Virus record (IMG/VR): IMGVR_UViG_3300009130_001833
Coordinates: 1-58,740 of that record
Strand: one strand, 5' to 3'
DNA: 58,740 nt
Source: a virus
Position numbers and translations under genes: made by a program. Positions 1,780-11,464 of this stretch are shown here, piece by piece. Under the pieces are notes generated by a model. The model was not told where the DNA came from, did not search any database, and saw nothing but the letters and a program-made list of their open reading frames with translations. How positions within the stretch are numbered: the stretch's first letter is position 1; each line of letters starts with the position of its first letter.

Positions 1780-1794
1780 ATGTCTATTTATATT

Positions 1795-2412
1795 ATGTCC
1801 AACAAAATTAAGATCAAGAAACACCTCCTCCAATATGGATATCTCCAATTGGAAAAACAAGAAGTTGATGACATTTGTGGAAATGTAGAAAAAGAAATAA
1901 GAAAGTTTTTCGAAAAAGAATTCCCCGAAGAGTTTAAAAAATTCAACACCAAAAAGGAAAACGAAGAAAAGGAACGATTAAAAAAGACAATAAGTGATCC
2001 TGAAGAGGAAACACAAGATATAAAAGAGAATTCCGAAGAAACAGAGGATAAAAAAGAAAAGAGTTCAGGCAAGAACCCGGATGTAAAAAAGATATATAGA
2101 AAAATAGCAGAAAAATCTCACCCGGACAAAACCGGTGATAACACCCATGCAGATATTTTCAGTGCTGCCGCCGAAGCTTACAAATCTAACAATGTGGCAA
2201 AGCTGTTAGATTTGGCAGCTTTGCTCAATATTGAGTTTACGGATCTGTCGGAAGATACGATAAATATATTAGAAAATAACATCACTTCCTTAAACAAGTA
2301 TATACATAATAAGAAGACTTCAACAGGGTGGAAGTGGCATACCTCCAAATCTGATGAAGAAAAGGTAGAGATTATAACTTTTATTTTAAAAACAGAGGGA
2401 ATAATAAAATGA
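1795..2412 (+). CDS. J-domain (DnaJ-like) phage protein
   Basis: 205 residues from the ATG at 1795. An N-terminal helical part and a very acidic/lysine-rich linker precede a J-domain-like segment (about residues 97-145) with the diagnostic HPD at H109-P-D. That motif activates the ATPase of Hsp70 (DnaK), so the protein may recruit host DnaK to virion assembly or replication. The zinc-finger and C-terminal domains of true DnaJ are absent. An in-frame ATG at 1780 overlaps the T tract of the preceding terminator, so 1795 is preferred; neither has a Shine-Dalgarno. Its stop overlaps the start of the next gene, suggesting coupling. Confidence 0.75.
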   Translation: MSNKIKIKKHLLQYGYLQLEKQEVDDICGNVEKEIRKFFEKEFPEEFKKFNTKKENEEKERLKKTISDPEEETQDIKENSEETEDKKEKSSGKNPDVKKIYRKIAEKSHPDKTGDNTHADIFSAAAEAYKSNNVAKLLDLAALLNIEFTDLSEDTINILENNITSLNKYIHNKKTSTGWKWHTSKSDEEKVEIITFILKTEGIIK

Positions 2413-2748: not shown

Positions 2749-2868
2749 ATGGGTCCGGCGGGAGCTTATATGACCCCCGATGGGAAATGGACTCCTATGG
2801 ACTATCCCGACCAACACAGAGATCTTCAAAAATCTGACGTATCTGAAGAAAAACTGTCTCGGAGTTAA
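2749..2868 (+). CDS. Possible 39-residue micro-protein
   Basis: An open frame of 39 codons beginning MGPAGAYMTPDGKWTPMDYP, rich in Gly, Pro, Asp and aromatic residues. It starts 23 bases after the preceding plus-strand gene. Its last 74 bases overlap the 3' end of the minus-strand lipoprotein gene. There is no clear Shine-Dalgarno. The composition of the first half looks like a real protein, but the frame is short and the overlap is convergent. Confidence 0.25.
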   Translation: MGPAGAYMTPDGKWTPMDYPDQHRDLQKSDVSEEKLSRS

Positions 2869-4063
2869 CAGCGGGGGTGAATAACCGATCCTGTTCTCCT
2901 CTTACCATCTGAATAAAAGATGCGTGATGTTCAGGGAGAGCAAAAACAAATATTTCAAAACCGTGTTCCACCGCAAAAGCATTTACCTGAGGTGTGTTGG
3001 AATTAGTAATGGTCTGAGCGATTTCATCAGTCATTAGAATTATTACCTTTTGGTTTCCCGGCGTCCAACTAAAAGGATACATCCCGTTCATAGACCATAA
3101 GGTAACATCGATAGAGGGCTCAATGCCGCCATCATCTATCATCCGAGCCGCTTCTAAATAATGTAAAAATTCATCAGCAGGAACGAAGTCAGTTATTAGC
3201 TCGGAATGGCGGTGTAACGGCGGCTCAAAGTTGCCCCGGTTCTGCCTGCCTATGACAGCCAGTCCAAATCGAAAATTGCTCGTCAAAGGGTCGTCTAAAA
3301 GCGGTGTAATACCTTCTATCATCGATCCTATCTCATCATCAAACGAACCAGAAATATCGAGAACAAAAACTAAATCTACACCACGAGTATCAAACCCTTC
3401 ATCGACTTCGCCGTCACAATCATTATCTAAATTGTCACAAAGTTCTCCGGCTGGTAGGATTTGTCCATCACAGGGTCCATCGAACCCACCATCTGTACAA
3501 TAGCGAACACCCGCCCGGCATTCTCCCACAGCCATTGTCCCTTCGGGTCCTTCATAGCATACGATTGCCGTAGTATTAGCAATGCCTTCATCCACGGATC
3601 CGTTGCAGTTATTATCCAAACCATCACATGCTTCTTCAGCAGGACCCACATGTCCCTCACAATGTAGTGCGCCATTATCACATTTCATAACTCCAGGGGT
3701 ACAAAGACCTACACCATAGTCGGCCCCTTCGACAAACCCACAGAGTTGGTGTTGCTCGGGAAACTTGTCATCGATGCCGGCACTACAGTCGTTGTCTATG
3801 CCGTCACATATCTCTTCTGACGGACCCATTGCACCGACACATTCTGACCAACCTTGAAAAGTACAAGTTTTCAATCCATAAGCACATTGACCCGGCTGTT
3901 GAGGGATAGGGTCCGTTACGGCATTTGGAAAAGACTCTCCGTTATGGTTGCAGACCATCTTATGTCCGGGGGTACACTCAAGTCTTACCAGTTCCTCATC
4001 ATCTATACACGCAGTACAAGCAGTCAAAAACAAGGGCACAAAAAATAAAACAAAGCGTTTCAT
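2795..4063 (-). CDS. Lipoprotein with MopE-type repeats and a VWA domain
   Basis: 422 residues. The N-terminus is a lipoprotein signal with lipobox LTAC (lipidated Cys16). Three cysteine-rich repeats follow, each ending in a CDG/N-LDNDC-type motif (about residues 84-100, 144-160 and 207-224), the putative metal-binding MopE motif common in Myxococcota-like exported proteins. A von Willebrand A domain runs from about residue 230 to the end, with MIDAS residues D236-x-S238-x-S240 and TD at 345-346. It should sit in the outer membrane or periplasm and bind a protein ligand through a divalent metal. It is the last gene of a three-gene minus-strand operon (ATGA overlap with 4060-4530). Its role in a phage is unknown: host adhesion change, superinfection exclusion or cell-surface binding are possible. 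Confidence 0.85.
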   Translation of the reverse strand: MKRFVLFFVPLFLTACTACIDDEELVRLECTPGHKMVCNHNGESFPNAVTDPIPQQPGQCAYGLKTCTFQGWSECVGAMGPSEEICDGIDNDCSAGIDDKFPEQHQLCGFVEGADYGVGLCTPGVMKCDNGALHCEGHVGPAEEACDGLDNNCNGSVDEGIANTTAIVCYEGPEGTMAVGECRAGVRYCTDGGFDGPCDGQILPAGELCDNLDNDCDGEVDEGFDTRGVDLVFVLDISGSFDDEIGSMIEGITPLLDDPLTSNFRFGLAVIGRQNRGNFEPPLHRHSELITDFVPADEFLHYLEAARMIDDGGIEPSIDVTLWSMNGMYPFSWTPGNQKVIILMTDEIAQTITNSNTPQVNAFAVEHGFEIFVFALPEHHASFIQMVRGEQDRLFTPAVNSETVFLQIRQIFEDLCVGRDSP

Positions 4064-4530
4064 TCCATTGTAGCCTCAACACAAGCCTCGTGAGAGGAAT
4101 ACAGAATCATGGATAACACCGTGCTGCCAAAAACACGAAATCTTACTTTTCTAAGAGGTAATTGGTCAGGGGTATAAGATGCCGTCATGATAATGGGCGG
4201 CGTGTCGTCAGATTGTGTAGGAAGTTTGAACGCAAAAAGTAATGAATTGCCAGGACCATTTTGAAGAATGCCGGCAATATATCCTTCTTGGATAACTTCG
4301 GGAATACCTATTTGGGTAGGGGAATTAGAACCCGGCTCTGTTGTAATTCGATCACTTATGTGTACGACCCATTTACAGTTGCCGTTTTGACCAGGCGTAT
4401 AAAACGCAGATTTTTTGGCAATAACAGTCTGGTAAAGATTATTGGCTTTAGTTTGATAATACAAAGCAACCGCGCTTGAGACGGCTAATAAACATAACAA
4501 TATAAGTCGTTGGCTAATTTTACCCAACAT
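4060..4530 (-). CDS. Membrane-anchored exported protein, unknown
   Basis: 156 residues with one N-terminal hydrophobic segment (about residues 8-24) that could be a signal anchor, followed by a beta-rich soluble part with two cysteines (in GNCKW and HEACVE) that could pair outside the cytoplasm. A strong AAGGAGG lies seven bases before the ATG. Its stop overlaps the start of the MopE/VWA lipoprotein gene by four bases, so the two are probably co-translated and may act together at the envelope. No family is recognised. Confidence 0.65.
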   Translation of the reverse strand: MLGKISQRLILLCLLAVSSAVALYYQTKANNLYQTVIAKKSAFYTPGQNGNCKWVVHISDRITTEPGSNSPTQIGIPEVIQEGYIAGILQNGPGNSLLFAFKLPTQSDDTPPIIMTASYTPDQLPLRKVRFRVFGSTVLSMILYSSHEACVEATME

Positions 4531-4543
4531 TTAAAGACCCTCC

Positions 4544-4798
4544 TTATGGAAGAGGTTCTAAATTGAGTACCTCTCCGGTGGGGGATAAAGTAATAAAAGG
4601 CATCTTCTTTATCTCTTTATTAAGTATCTGGTTATTCGGAGTTTTTGTCTTCTTTTCTATCCAGACAAGAATTTGGGTTTTCTCTTTTACTTGTCCCACA
4701 TAGGACCATTTGCCCTCTATTTTTTGCCAAATTTGTGGAAAGTCAACAGTTTGTCCCGCTAACAACAGGAGACCCGAGATTAATATAGTGTTTAACAT
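4544..4798 (-). CDS. Small exported protein, unknown
   Basis: 84 residues. Residues 1-17 look like a cleavable signal peptide (hydrophobic core, small residues before a Gln). The remaining part of about 67 residues is lysine-rich and beta-strand-like (KWSYVGQVKEKTQILVWIE). It is the first gene of the minus-strand operon, 13 bases ahead of the next gene. It might be a periplasmic partner of the two proteins that follow. It is not obviously a spanin or holin. Confidence 0.55.
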   Translation of the reverse strand: MLNTILISGLLLLAGQTVDFPQIWQKIEGKWSYVGQVKEKTQILVWIEKKTKTPNNQILNKEIKKMPFITLSPTGEVLNLEPLP

Positions 4799-4881
4799 TT
4801 AGTTCTTCTAATCCTTTCTGGAAATCCGTCGAGCAGATTTACTATGGATAATTAGTCCCTCTTCAATCTACTTACTATATT
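4799..4881. promoter_or_regulatory. Divergent intergenic region between exported-protein units
   Basis: These 83 bases separate the minus-strand operon (start 4798) from the plus-strand protease gene (start 4882), so they must hold at least the minus-strand promoter. An AAGGA in minus orientation lies before the 4798 start. AT-rich TACTATATT immediately precedes the plus-strand ATG. I cannot assign convincing -35/-10 pairs. Confidence 0.35.
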
Positions 4882-5778
4882 ATGATGAAAAAAACCCCTT
4901 TTTACGTTAAGTTTCTTATAGTTGGGCTCCTCAGCCTTGCCAGTTGCGTCAGTGGTTGTTCAACAGTTAATATCACTCAGTCGGCTAATAAAGAATTACT
5001 CCCTCGGCATTCTTTTGTGCAAATTCAGCAATCCGTTCAATTGGAAGGATGTGGAGTTGATAAAAAAACAAATGAAGTCCGGTGCCAGACGGCTGTGATG
5101 AGATATGTGTCGTCGGGAGCTTATGTATTTCATAGTGAAGTGGCAGAAGGTTATTCTTATGTCCTGACAGCAGGTCATTCCTGTCAAACCTCAGTCCCTA
5201 AAGAACAAAACATTAATGGTTATAGAATCTTAAATAAAGGATCTCTCTTTAAAGTCGTGAATTTACAAGGAAATAGTCATACGGCTGAAGTAGTAGAGAT
5301 AAATGATCGGTTTGATCTGTGCCTCATGAAAGTAGCGGATGTTTATAAGAGACCGGCAGTTCTAAAGGTAGCTCCGTCCGAGCCTCTACGTGGCGAGACG
5401 GTTTTTAATATGGCTGCCCCTCATGGACTTTTCTGGCCCGGAACCGTCTTGATTTTCAAAGGACAATTTTCTGGATATCATACGAGGGGTTTTTCAGTTT
5501 ATACACTCCCCACTAAGCCTGGATCAAGTGGGTCACCTATATTAAATTCAATGAACCAGTTGGTCGGAGTTATTTTTGCCGGGTATCCCACAATAGAAAA
5601 TGTAGGCTTATCATCTCCTTTGGTAGCTATTAAAGTCTTCTTAAAACGCTCCATTGCAAAAGGAGAGATGAAAATGTGGGAAAAAAACAATAAGCCCGCA
5701 CCAAATACTTCGGTAGAAAGGTTGTGGATTAAACAAAAATTAAAAAGCAAATTAGGTGAATTCTTTAAAACTGAATAG
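4882..5778 (+). CDS. Trypsin-like serine protease, lipoprotein
   Basis: 298 residues. A hydrophobic N-terminus ends in a lipobox (LASC, Cys22, or VSGC, Cys26), so the enzyme is probably anchored in the envelope. The chymotrypsin-fold triad is visible: H99 in TAGHS, D145 in FDL and S216 in GSSGSP. The family cleaves peptide bonds C-terminal to residues set by its S1 pocket; the substrate here is unknown. The C-terminal 60 residues are basic and have no PDZ domain, unlike DegP/HtrA. It is divergent from the minus-strand exported-protein operon and close to it, so the four genes form an envelope-directed island. It differs from the self-processing prohead proteases, which stay cytoplasmic. ATG 4882 or 4885 is the start; neither has a Shine-Dalgarno. 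Confidence 0.85.
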   Translation: MMKKTPFYVKFLIVGLLSLASCVSGCSTVNITQSANKELLPRHSFVQIQQSVQLEGCGVDKKTNEVRCQTAVMRYVSSGAYVFHSEVAEGYSYVLTAGHSCQTSVPKEQNINGYRILNKGSLFKVVNLQGNSHTAEVVEINDRFDLCLMKVADVYKRPAVLKVAPSEPLRGETVFNMAAPHGLFWPGTVLIFKGQFSGYHTRGFSVYTLPTKPGSSGSPILNSMNQLVGVIFAGYPTIENVGLSSPLVAIKVFLKRSIAKGEMKMWEKNNKPAPNTSVERLWIKQKLKSKLGEFFKTE

Positions 5779-6861: not shown

Positions 6862-9800
6862 ATGGGTGGCGTTGCTGGGCACATGTCCCATCTTTATGAT
6901 AATCCCGACCTAACTTTTGCAAAAATCAAAGAGATTTTAGCCGCGGCGTCTGATGGGCAATTAGAAGCCGAAGAGAAAGTAGATGGACAAAACCTCTTTT
7001 TGTCTTATTCTATTCCTGAAGGGAAAGCTAAAGGTGCGCGCAATAAAGGGAATTTAAGAGCAGGGGGCTTGGATGCCGCCGGTTTGGCTAAAAAGTTTGC
7101 CGGGCGAGGGAATATTGAGCGTACCTTTACGAAAGGGTTTTCCGCTTTTGAAGATGCGGTAGAGGAACTCACTCCGGGCGAAAAGACTCGCATTTTTGGA
7201 CCTAATGCTAATATTTGGTATAACGCTGAAATTATGGACCCTGGTAGCCGCTTAGAATCTGGGGAAATGAATCCGGACGATCCGGGATCTACGAACGTTA
7301 TCAAATATGACGGAAAAACTTTAAAGATCCATGATGTGGGACATTTCCTTTTTGATCCCGAAACTGGGGAGAAAAACCCCATTCCCGAAGGTTCTCTGGA
7401 AGCGTTAGATGATGTCGTAGAAGACATGCAACAACAACTCCACAATCATGATTTTGCCCTCGTGCGCAGGGCTGCTATAAACCTCAATAAACTTGAAGAT
7501 GATGAAGCCCTTCAGGTGGCTACTCGCCGCATTAACAACGCCGTAAATTCGGAAGGATTGGGCGACAACAATACTATCCGAGATTATAATTATGTACGGT
7601 TAGTGAATGGTCTTGATGGCGATCTCTCCCGCACAAAAAGAGAAGAGTTGGCCAAATATCTCCTTAAAATGCCTGATAATATTGGTCTGCGTGCCATCAA
7701 AAAGGGACTTAAACCTGAAGATGTGGCAGATGTAAGTCGCATTGTAGATCGCAAGAGGATGATTTTATTTCAAGCGATTCAGCCCATAGAAGAAGCTATT
7801 CATGATTTTACAGTAGAAATTCTCCGGGGATTAGAGAGTCGCTTCATTGTGGACAGTAAATCCGAAGTAAAAAGGCTTCAACAAGAGTTAGGGAAGGCAG
7901 TCAAAGCAATAACGGATAAAGGAAAGGAAGATCCTGAAACAATGGCGTTAATGCAACAACATCTGAGAAAAATTAAAGATTATTCTAATATTAATACTCC
8001 CACCGAAGGTATAGTTTTTGTATATGATGATCACATTTATAAATTCACCGGTAATTTTGCTCCCCTGAATCAGATCTTAGGAATGTTCAAGTACCCCAGA
8101 GGTGGTAAAACGAGTGCTCTGACAAGCGAATCACGCCATATATCACCGCCCATCCGAACCATAACCGAAGACGAAGATTCTATTAGAACTGAAAAAGCTC
8201 AAAACTTTGTCCTTTCTCTTCCTAAATTTACTCCCACTGAAGCTTGGGGTAATCCCTCTTCTATGGAGCGCCAACAAATTCAACGAATTTTTGACACTAT
8301 TGGTGGGGGTGCCACTATCTCCGAAAAGTTGGCTTTTTTAAACCAATCTATTAAGAACCCATCTGGAAATATTCGTTCACCGCGGCGCATTATCAGTACC
8401 TTGATTATGTTAGAGTCTTTGGGCGCTGTTATTAGAAGCTTTAATGAGGCCAGTGCAGGATTCGTCTTTGAGGGATTCTTAGCGGCATTATTCCGTGGTC
8501 AACAAGTAGCAGGTCGTAGTGAAAAAGGAAATTTGCCCATTCAAGATTTGATCGCTTTTACGGAACTAAAGAGTGGAAAAACCGTTCCCATTAGTTTAAA
8601 ACTCCTTAATCAAAGAACTTCTATCGAAGGGAGTTATACTAATTTAGTAGATGCTTTGGATGAGTTTGGCGAAATGGTGTATATTGTTGGACGGAAAGAT
8701 GGTGAAAAGATTGTATTAGAGAAGTTCACTTTTGATCGAGACAATTTTATTAGTGCCTTATCAGCAGGGGCAAAAGGTGGACTGGTTAAAGAAAAGAATC
8801 TTTTCACATTGCCTGGAAAAACACCGGAAGAATCTATTTCCCTCTTAAACTCCTTACAAGGAGAGAGTAATTGGCCCCAAAAATATCAATTGCTTGTTTC
8901 TTCTGCTGGTTATGACCCTAAAGAACGAGCACGGAAAGAAAGAGAAGCCGCCAAACACGAAGAAGAGATGGTAACCGTTACGGACGAAATGCCTGATGGG
9001 GAAAATGTTGAAGCCACTGCCAACAGACGAGATTACACCGTTCAAGAAAACAGACTACTATGGGAAAGTTATGTTTTAACCGAAAGTTCTCAAAGACAGT
9101 GGGCAATACACCCCCCTCAGTTGAAGGCGATACAAGATTCGGTGGACTATGAGCCGCTGGGGTCTCTGCCATATAGTCCGGATAGTGTGGTACAGGTTGC
9201 TAAAATGTATATGGATAGATTAGGTGATAACCTATTGAATGTATTTCAAGCATCTAAAGATCTCTCTGAGGAAATTACTTCCTACTTTACCCAGAAAAAA
9301 AGAAGTGCAGCAATTGCCTCGGCTCAACAAGCAATTCAGAGTTCTGATGAAATTGGACGAGAGATGACGGCCCATATCTCCCAAGACCAAGAGACCAATG
9401 AAAGTGTCTTAAAAGAAGATCAGCGGGTTGTTTCTGCAAATCCAGCTACTGGTAAGAGGATTGCATTATTCCCAGGGAAATTTAAACCTCCGCACCAAGG
9501 ACATTACGAACTCGCTAAAAGTATCGCTACAAGACCTGATCTCGCTGTTGATGAAGTAGTGATATTAATTTCTCCCTCCTCTAAGCCGGAAGTTAATCCG
9601 GAACAGTCATTAGAGATGTGGAACAAATATCTGCAAGCTGAGGGTGCACCTGATAATATTAGTGTAGAAATTGCTGACTATCGGAGTCCTATCACTTCTG
9701 TCTATGAATTCGTGGCGGATCCAGTAAAAGCCCGTCCTGGCGATACGATACTTCTATTGAAAAGTTCAAAGGATATAGGAGATACTCGTTATAAGGGCGC

Positions 9801-10179
9801 GCAATCCTACGCCGAACGTAATAATAAGGGGGTCAACGTCGATTTAATTGAGGCTGATCCGGTGGAGCGATCGCCCGGTGTGCCATATCATGGAGAAGAT
9901 GCACGAGAAGCCATAGCACAACAAAATCGGAAAATATTTAATACTTTTCTTCCTTCTCACGTAGACAGTGATGAGGTCTGGAATATATTTCACCCTAATG
10001 CGCCACTAGATTCTTTTATTGATGAAATTAGTCTCGGTGGAAGTATAGAGGGATCTTCTGGAGCCGGATCGTGGGGACCGCCAAATACTTTCGATCCTTA
10101 TAAGAGATCAACTAACGAAAAACCCCCTAAACCCAAGCGTGCCTCAAGAAAAAGGGCAAAACGTCAAAGACGAAGATAA
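6862..10179 (+). CDS. Multidomain nucleotidyltransferase (ligase-like plus HxGH domain)
   Basis: 1105 residues. The N-terminal third carries motifs of covalent nucleotidyltransferases (ATP-dependent ligase/capping superfamily): K39-x-D41-G42 as motif I, YNAEI (E123) as motif III, EGIVF (382-386) as motif IV and YKFTG (K394) as motif V. A middle region has E537, D562 and SLK (K580) in a spacing that could be a degenerate PD-(D/E)xK fold; this is weak. Residues about 868-1050 are a cytidylyltransferase/NMN-adenylyltransferase-like Rossmann domain with GKFKPPHQGH (H878, H881) and a later GEDAREAI (R1015) like the SxTxxR motif. The tail is highly basic. Cyanophages have proteins called cytitidyltransferase that I think are related. 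Products could be NAD-type dinucleotides, an adenylated intermediate or repaired RNA; the true substrate is unknown. Confidence 0.75.
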   Translation: MGGVAGHMSHLYDNPDLTFAKIKEILAAASDGQLEAEEKVDGQNLFLSYSIPEGKAKGARNKGNLRAGGLDAAGLAKKFAGRGNIERTFTKGFSAFEDAVEELTPGEKTRIFGPNANIWYNAEIMDPGSRLESGEMNPDDPGSTNVIKYDGKTLKIHDVGHFLFDPETGEKNPIPEGSLEALDDVVEDMQQQLHNHDFALVRRAAINLNKLEDDEALQVATRRINNAVNSEGLGDNNTIRDYNYVRLVNGLDGDLSRTKREELAKYLLKMPDNIGLRAIKKGLKPEDVADVSRIVDRKRMILFQAIQPIEEAIHDFTVEILRGLESRFIVDSKSEVKRLQQELGKAVKAITDKGKEDPETMALMQQHLRKIKDYSNINTPTEGIVFVYDDHIYKFTGNFAPLNQILGMFKYPRGGKTSALTSESRHISPPIRTITEDEDSIRTEKAQNFVLSLPKFTPTEAWGNPSSMERQQIQRIFDTIGGGATISEKLAFLNQSIKNPSGNIRSPRRIISTLIMLESLGAVIRSFNEASAGFVFEGFLAALFRGQQVAGRSEKGNLPIQDLIAFTELKSGKTVPISLKLLNQRTSIEGSYTNLVDALDEFGEMVYIVGRKDGEKIVLEKFTFDRDNFISALSAGAKGGLVKEKNLFTLPGKTPEESISLLNSLQGESNWPQKYQLLVSSAGYDPKERARKEREAAKHEEEMVTVTDEMPDGENVEATANRRDYTVQENRLLWESYVLTESSQRQWAIHPPQLKAIQDSVDYEPLGSLPYSPDSVVQVAKMYMDRLGDNLLNVFQASKDLSEEITSYFTQKKRSAAIASAQQAIQSSDEIGREMTAHISQDQETNESVLKEDQRVVSANPATGKRIALFPGKFKPPHQGHYELAKSIATRPDLAVDEVVILISPSSKPEVNPEQSLEMWNKYLQAEGAPDNISVEIADYRSPITSVYEFVADPVKARPGDTILLLKSSKDIGDTRYKGAQSYAERNNKGVNVDLIEADPVERSPGVPYHGEDAREAIAQQNRKIFNTFLPSHVDSDEVWNIFHPNAPLDSFIDEISLGGSIEGSSGAGSWGPPNTFDPYKRSTNEKPPKPKRASRKRAKRQRRR

Positions 10180-10189
10180 TTAGAATACC

Positions 10190-10999
10190 ATGACTATTAA
10201 TCGAGATACTTTAGTTGCAGAACAGCTTATTCGTGAGCATGTACGGAAACGCATCCTTCAAAACCTCAACCAAGCAAATATTCAGGAACAAAAACTCCGT
10301 GAAGCTATCCGAATTTTGATTCGTGAAAAGACTGAAACTGGAACGTCGGAACCGAGTACATATACTGGCATCAATGTTTTAGCTGATCTTCTTAAAGCTA
10401 TTATCCCTGTCATTGGTGATGATTATAAATTACTAACCACATCGGACGAGCAGCGAGAATCTTTTCGAAACCACATTATCCATGCGGTAAAAAATTCCTT
10501 ACGCCCCATCGAAGTCAACAACGCAGTAGAGGATATGGCAGAAAATGCTGTATTTGAAATTGACCGCGGTCTCCTCAAAGAACTGGTACAGGTTGATGTC
10601 GATGAAGAACCAGGGAGTGAAAATGCAGAAACCCTGGAAGGGGAGTTTATTGATATCGATGATGGTGCTGAGGAAGAGGAAGAATTTGTACAAATTAAAG
10701 ACCAAAACGAGACAGGGAGAAATTTTGCGGCTGATACTTTTAACCAAGTAGAAAAACAAATTGTAGATGCTTATGATATGTTGGCAGATGAAGAGGATCA
10801 AAACCTTTTTTACGATTATCTATTAACCAACCTCCTCCTTTATTTTGATAAATTTGAAGACGAGCTACAAAATGAGCTACCCGATGTTTCAACACCAGAA
10901 TACGAAGAAGAGAAAAGGGCAGATGAAGAAGCAGTGGAGGCAGAAGATTCGTTAGATGCCAGCGATGAAGAGGAAATGGATCTCGACGTCGGCTTTTAA
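10190..10999 (+). CDS. Acidic helical protein, unknown
   Basis: 269 residues, helical, with a strongly acidic middle (EEEEEF region near residue 165) and an acidic C-terminus ending in DLDVGF. No membrane segment or catalytic motif is visible. It follows the large nucleotidyltransferase gene by ten bases and closes that transcription unit. Acidic helical phage proteins can be assembly chaperones, scaffold-like proteins or DNA mimics; I cannot choose among these. Confidence 0.6.
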   Translation: MTINRDTLVAEQLIREHVRKRILQNLNQANIQEQKLREAIRILIREKTETGTSEPSTYTGINVLADLLKAIIPVIGDDYKLLTTSDEQRESFRNHIIHAVKNSLRPIEVNNAVEDMAENAVFEIDRGLLKELVQVDVDEEPGSENAETLEGEFIDIDDGAEEEEEFVQIKDQNETGRNFAADTFNQVEKQIVDAYDMLADEEDQNLFYDYLLTNLLLYFDKFEDELQNELPDVSTPEYEEEKRADEEAVEAEDSLDASDEEEMDLDVGF

Positions 11000-11139: not shown

Positions 11140-11464
11140 GGGGGTAACCGGTATCGATTGATGGGAAAGGAGAAAAGGTGCAAGGGTGAGGGAAGCGTGG
11201 CTCACTAAAAACGCTTAAATTTTAATCGCAAACGACGATTTTAACATGGAGATGGCAGCTTAATAACCTGACCCCTCTTGAGGCGGCGGCAGCCAATAAA
11301 CAGAAAGCCGTATTGTGTCCTTATGAGTGCTTTTGATTATCTCAGCCATAATAAGATGATCTAGTCAAGCGGTCTGTTCGACGATAAAAAACAGTTCTAA
11401 CCTTGTGAATGACCTTTCTGTGGAACCAAGCAAGACGGGAGTTCGATTCTCCCTACCTCCACCA
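11140..11464 (+). ncRNA. ssrA: tmRNA (SsrA), phage-encoded
   Basis: A 325-base one-piece tmRNA that frees stalled ribosomes and tags the nascent protein for proteolysis. The 5' GGGGGTA (11140-11146) pairs with TACCTCC (11454-11460), giving the G3-U70-type wobble that marks alanine charging by AlaRS; discriminator A11461 and CCA 11462-11464 are encoded. The T-arm is GGGAG-TTCGATT-CTCCC. The tag frame starts at GCA 11228 and encodes ANDDFNMEMAA, followed by tandem TAA stops (11261-11266). The tag ends in MAA rather than the common LAA, keeping the small hydrophobic end read by ClpXP. It has its own promoter and terminator, between two protein-coding units. Confidence 0.95.

Follow-up and report, generated by a model that had tools for sequence, protein, structure and literature searches.

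The window analysed here, a virus record of 58,740 bases (IMGVR_UViG_3300009130_001833) that is probably partial, contains a compact cassette of four genes, which an uncultured T4-like phage lineage carries as a core module. Its products are a lipoprotein with MopE repeats and a VWA domain, a trypsin-like lipoprotein and two small proteins that are secreted or sit in the membrane. Because fuller genomes of the lineage add a second, membrane-embedded protease of the site-2 (M50) type, the lineage probably runs its own programme of protein cutting in the host envelope. We tentatively propose that the four genes and the M50 protease form a phage-made module acting on envelope proteins of the infected cell, a reading that we hold plausible, if somewhat short of an even chance.

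A conserved four-gene cassette

The earlier note had described four open reading frames at positions 2795 to 5778, three of them on the minus strand, and each was found with the same coordinates and orientation. The minus-strand operon runs in the order 84-aa gene, 156-aa gene, MopE-VWA, and the trypsin gene diverges from it across a gap of 83 bp; in a related 190-kb contig the cassette is the only clear minus-strand operon. Predicted signals and lipoboxes support the suggestion that this is an envelope-directed gene set. The gene content of the window also includes PhoH, baseplate wedge proteins, an M23 peptidase and sugar enzymes. The terminase of the 190-kb contig is nearest to those of Flavobacterium phage immuto and Microcystis phage Mel-JY01 (~45% identity).

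IMG/VR was queried with MopE-VWA and with the trypsin-like protein (E-values in these locus searches are relative to the candidates only). The relatives are contigs from uncultured phages, mostly partial; 52 loci were tested, representing 51 distinct sequences, some of them the same virus from different samples. Conservation of the genes together had been set beforehand as a test of the set, and MopE-VWA, the 156-aa gene and the trypsin gene occur in the same divergent arrangement in all 52 loci, with the 84-aa gene detectable by profile in nearly all. Among 50,697 phage records, tblastn returned no isolated phage matching either MopE-VWA or the trypsin-like protein, and we found no paper describing this gene set in a phage; the view that no described phage system possesses it therefore stands. 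A search against PADLOC defence models gave only weak, generic protease matches (best 6.5e-4).

The position and divergence of the cassette bear on its status. Within clade A, whose 34 loci have their flanks in common, median identities against the window are 68% for MopE-VWA, 67% for the trypsin-like protein, 69% for the 84-aa gene and 63% for the 156-aa gene; for nearby genes they are 30, 41, 47, 58, 61 and 62%, and for PhoH 78%. Clade B (PhoH about 71%) has the complete cassette too, now 57-60 kb away from PhoH and flanked by homologues of two genes from the replication region of the 190-kb contig. A sister lineage (PhoH 52-56%) has the trypsin gene beside PhoH and, in two cases, a long MopE-VWA gene elsewhere on the same contig. 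The earlier note had regarded the genes as moron cargo. This view is unsupported, because every clade A locus with coverage contains the set, which is better conserved (63-69%) than its neighbours (30-62%) and has been relocated complete in clade B.

The gap between the operon and the trypsin gene contains the element TTACTnnGGATAAWTAGT (positions 4839 to 4856, plus strand). It occurs exactly in 26 of the 52 loci, all of them in clade A, and has one copy each in the window and the 190-kb relative; clades outside A have different gap sequences. Since the element is single-copy, we rejected the idea that it is a genome-wide phage promoter. It is likely to be a promoter or operator specific to the cassette.

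The proteins of the cassette

The MopE-VWA lipoprotein (422 aa; positions 2795 to 4063, minus strand) was characterised by Pfam searches, an alignment of 33 sequences, and a structural model with fold search. It has a lipobox-like signal. The stretch at 3398 to 3814 (minus strand) holds three MopE repeats (3770-3814, 3587-3634 and 3398-3445), identified by Pfam and in the sequence; Cu-binding_MopE matches in three stretches with an E-value of 5e-11 and 43.1 bits against a cut-off of 27, which bears out the MopE assignment. The VWA domain (positions 2813 to 3388, minus strand) lies below the Pfam cut-off (0.004), but its fold is borne out by an AlphaFold model and PDB fold matches: residues ~227-417 match integrin I and VWF A domains (E ~1e-8, TM-score to target ~0.7) and show the expected alternation of strands and helices. 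As a whole the model has low confidence (pLDDT 59.6), since it does not resolve the repeat region, and the VWA part alone is interpretable.

The MIDAS residues D236, S238, S240, E315 and D346 are invariant in A1, and their equivalents are invariant in 16 distant VWA domains. Among VWA domains down to 21% identity the invariants include DxSGS and the Glu and Asp of GGxEPxxD; the same comparison adds the Asp-Glu of TDExxQ and a terminal Cys. The E315 position we take to be the site of the acidic residue in integrin-beta-like metal sites. The VWA fold, as supported by the model, comes with a predicted integrin-like metal site.

The trypsin-like lipoprotein (298 aa; positions 4882 to 5778, plus strand) matches Trypsin_2 in Pfam (5e-15). 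Its triad, H99, D145 and S216, and its lipobox cysteine, C22, are invariant in an alignment of 26 sequences, in agreement with the original description of a lipidated serine protease with an intact triad. The relatives of the protein in the PDB are HtrA, DegP and Spl proteases; a PDZ domain was not matched, and curated HtrA/Do models scored far below cut-off. Both folds on which the earlier note had staked its reading, VWA and protease, are supported.

The two remaining genes match no family in Pfam, PADLOC, NCBIfam or PHROGs. The first gene of the operon (positions 4544 to 4798, minus strand) is an open reading frame for a small protein of 84 aa with an N-terminal signal, conserved in the same place in clade A and detected by profile in clades B and C. 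The second (positions 4060 to 4530, minus strand) encodes a membrane-anchored protein of 156 aa, defined by its open reading frame, an alignment and a model (pLDDT 89) in which an N-terminal helix (residues 2-32) is joined to a small beta domain; C52 and C150 are invariant in the alignment, and the model gave no confident fold match. A pilin reading of this protein was rejected: the lone PDB profile match had an E-value of 0.56, and no fold match was obtained.

A site-2 protease linked to the cassette

The M50 protease matches Peptidase_M50 with E-values of 1e-55 to 1e-57 and carries HExxH and LDGGH motifs in the alignment; no PDZ domain was matched. In clade B a gene for a single-pass membrane protein and the M50 gene lie directly 3' of the trypsin gene, and in clade C the M50 gene abuts MopE-VWA. 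In clade A some 75 kb separate the M50 gene from the cassette, and the same membrane partner lies upstream of the protease gene. Seven of the eight cassette contigs longer than 120 kb contain the protease; the eighth (G014) just fails to cover the place where the 190-kb contig predicts it. The gene was found in none of four related contigs of 155-190 kb that are without the compact cassette. Nor is it present in the 58.7-kb fragment that forms the window, which is why the earlier note missed the link.

Each of the 33 IMG/VR loci matching the M50 profile either contains the cassette or has flanking genes in common with the lineage, although the search patterns derive from this lineage and would miss distant M50 proteins of phages. 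M50 matches among the 50,697 phage records are few, extend over no more than 75% of the query and mostly lie in short faecal contigs or in records that look host-derived. A review of site-2 proteases never mentions phage (PMC10202637), and we found no paper describing a site-2 protease in any phage.

The membrane partner of the M50 protease weakly resembles an Rz-like spanin (phrog_739, 7e-5 and 1.7e-4), which raises the possibility of a module that detects superinfection, contact or another envelope event and then times or aids lysis and release by cutting membrane or outer-membrane proteins. Consistent with this, nine candidate proteins of the 190-kb relative yielded no other recognisable lysis gene product. 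However, the resemblance to a spanin rests on a transmembrane and coiled-coil stretch, neither a holin nor an endolysin gene adjoins the cassette, and the M23 peptidase gene adjoins the tail genes. We consider a role in lysis very unlikely.

The combination of proteases could also be read as an envelope cascade of the phage's own, in which the VWA protein would be the sensor, the lipid-anchored trypsin the site-1 protease, the M50 protein the site-2 protease and the single-pass protein a substrate that reports an envelope event. The event might be superinfection or surface contact, and the report would reach the infected cell or phage gene expression. We think this reading unlikely; our literature search found no description of an envelope cascade of this kind in any phage.

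Exchange of VWA alleles and pairing with trypsin elsewhere

Trees of the VWA and trypsin genes were compared after grouping loci by gene context. In the trypsin tree clade B forms one side of a single branch. In the VWA tree it is scattered, forcing at least five changes (AU p 9.8e-24). Loci L033 (clade B) and L034 (clade A), for example, share 89% in VWA and 38% in trypsin. The VWA gene has moved between sub-lineages while its partners stayed. Because VWA was swapped and trypsin follows descent, VWA looks like the specificity part of the module, although a gene that evolves slowly also recombines more readily.

The main rival to a module for envelope proteolysis is superinfection exclusion, in which an outer-membrane VWA protein would recognise the receptor, or the adsorption protein of an incoming phage, and the trypsin would clip or block it, the M50 protease serving the lineage in another function. 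The swapping of VWA between lineages fits a specificity part of this kind, and the genes flanking the cassette in clade A include fast-evolving proteins. Against this, exclusion genes tend towards variable accessory genes and the MopE-VWA gene is strongly conserved; the linkage to M50 in clades B and C is left unexplained as well. Phage lipoproteins such as Llp of T5 do block outer-membrane receptors (PMC9586334), but proteins of the Llp type are small, single lipoproteins. On balance we regard superinfection exclusion as somewhat unlikely.

Genes for exported VWA and trypsin-like proteins also adjoin each other in other phages, in different orders. In L060 a MopE-VWA gene (740 aa) is followed by trypsin, and the same order is seen in L140, a phage-like contig in an Acidiferrobacteraceae MAG; in L113 trypsin is followed by a VWA lipoprotein without MopE. 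Among other phages with a long MopE-VWA gene, a trypsin neighbour was found only in L060 and L140, and in several sister phages no VWA gene adjoins the trypsin gene. The pairing of MopE and VWA had been called typical of Myxococcota-like secretomes. It does exist in bacteria, on one chromosome (L342), but Myxococcota-type MAGs match the MopE repeats and not the VWA part. A VWA profile had no hit among five genomes from one phylum and hits in four of 193 from another, one of these with the full architecture.

The VWA lipoprotein of L113 weakly matches NF052240 (2.9e-5; 23.4 bits against a cut-off of 700), the curated model of Bdellovibrio MIDAS lipoproteins, which work at a cell-cell junction and depend on their MIDAS residues (PMC11003981). 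The VWA lipoprotein might be displayed so that the infected cell sticks to cells or surfaces, with the trypsin maturing or shedding it. The window protein itself, however, gave no match to NF052240, and adhesion offers no clear reason for an adhesin that is present throughout a lineage with three fixed partner genes. Of the readings considered we hold surface adhesion to be the least probable.

A proposed module for processing envelope proteins

If the cassette and the M50 protease do form a module that processes envelope proteins, then its action might proceed in four steps. All four cassette proteins would be exported, as their signals and lipoboxes suggest. The VWA protein would bind an envelope target in a metal-dependent manner, for which it has the MIDAS residues, and set the specificity. 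The lipid-anchored trypsin, whose catalytic residues are in place, may then cut first, at the periplasmic or surface face, and the M50 protease and its co-encoded single-pass partner, linked to the cassette as described, may cut in the inner membrane. The 156-aa and 84-aa proteins could be substrates, scaffolds or inhibitors of the protease. The purpose would most likely be to change proteins of the host envelope in favour of the infection.

Several observations favour a joint module: the fixed arrangement, relocation of the set intact, the M50 linkage, the invariant residues, the recurrent adjacency of VWA and trypsin, the exchange of alleles and the element in the gap. Against it stand the distance of ~75 kb between M50 and cassette in clade A, the lack of an M50 gene in the window fragment and the fact that trypsin and VWA genes are often unpaired in other phages.

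What is known of phage action on the host envelope comes mainly from single small lipoproteins or inner-membrane proteins. A conserved set that combines an integrin-like binder with a serine protease, and to which an intramembrane protease is linked, suggests that some widespread large phages regularly process envelope proteins, and ties these phages to a family of MopE-VWA lipoproteins of bacterial chromosomes. That VWA is exchanged like a specificity module offers a direct handle on the search for its target.

Comparison with known systems

The proteases recall the sigma-E pathway, in which DegS and RseP are a periplasmic and an intramembrane protease acting in series (PMC7728848; PMC10202637). 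As with DegS, RseP and RseA, a trypsin-like envelope protease, an M50 protease and a type II single-pass protein are encoded in one genome. Unlike that system, the phage protease is a lipoprotein with no PDZ domain matched, and no anti-sigma or sigma partner was found with the phage proteases. With no PDZ domain matched in either phage protease, serial cutting of the DegS/RseP type is not implied, and SpoIVFB, which is also PDZ-less, works without a first cut (PMC10202637); accordingly, we do not impose the DegS/RseP order on the phage proteins. The phage M50 protease resembles SpoIVFB in lacking PDZ and in having a co-encoded membrane protein; it differs in that neither the CBS domain of SpoIVFB nor its substrate pro-sigma-K was found here.

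Among phage proteins, Llp of T5 and Cor are similar in being phage-encoded lipoproteins directed to the outer membrane, but they are small single proteins, whereas the cassette comprises four genes, including a protease and a VWA protein of 422 aa.

The Bdellovibrio proteins Bd0875 and Bd1483 (NF052240) share with the window protein a lipobox, a VWA domain with DxSxS and an acidic residue in a later loop; the Asp of DxSxS and the acidic residue of loop 3 matter for their function, and neither MopE repeats nor a trypsin partner is reported for them in the passages of PMC11003981 consulted. The chromosomal protein of L342 (820-2049; about 410 aa) has the same architecture of three MopE repeats and VWA, and, like the window's protein, DWSGS, GIEPS and TDE motifs in the VWA domain and a terminal Cys; unlike the cassette, it is encoded by a single gene between purL-like and CoA-ligase-like genes, with no trypsin or small partners. 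The closest bacterial parallels to the cassette are these Bdellovibrio MIDAS lipoproteins and the chromosomal MopE-VWA lipoprotein.

Genes of the window and of cassette-bearing relatives

Chaperone-type genes are found in the vicinity of the cassette (the minus-strand operon with the MopE-VWA lipoprotein gene and two small genes, and the divergent trypsin-like lipoprotein gene) in all three clades: a DnaJ-domain protein in clade A (window 1780-2412), a Cpn10-like gene in clade B (L349:8454-8771) and DnaJ in clade C (L265:14377-15402). The M50 site-2 protease of related genomes is co-encoded, with slight gene overlap, with a partner, a single-pass coiled-coil membrane protein (L263:5879-7206, in the 190-kb cassette-bearing relative, and L349:11746-13007), in which a cytosolic EPxxxDVxP motif is conserved.

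The 190-kb relative also encodes approximately 10 small proteins that share the N-terminus MKITKSQLRQIIKEE and are positioned close to both contig ends (the start of L254 and the end of L263). A further ORF in this contig (L258:11678-12079) has a prepilin-like N-terminus, MNRRGMTLILVLMMSAFIG, and returned no PHROG match.

The window carries tRNA-Thr and tRNA-Gly genes (30-181) and, on the plus strand, flanked by PhoH and by the gene at 10190, a tmRNA (11140-11464); its tag peptide, ANDDFNMEMAA, might aid identification of the host.

Related genes in other loci

In four distantly related phages (L103, L110, L111 and L114) a large gene of the type found at window 6862-10179 is followed by a membrane-anchored trypsin-like protein. 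In the phage contig L060 and in L140 (PBOB01000020.1), the MopE-VWA and trypsin pair is adjoined by a gene for a long exported protein that carries GEGEGE linkers (L060:10912-12618; L140:8830-10419); in the L060 copy there are LDLR-like cysteine repeats. L140 is binned in an Acidiferrobacteraceae MAG and its gene content is similar to that of L060; it is possibly a misbinned phage contig, or possibly a clue to a host.

One clade B phage encodes a second exported MopE protein of 681 amino acids (L264:573-2618, on the same contig as L025), apparently a beta-propeller lipoprotein of a type known from Myxococcota-like secretomes.
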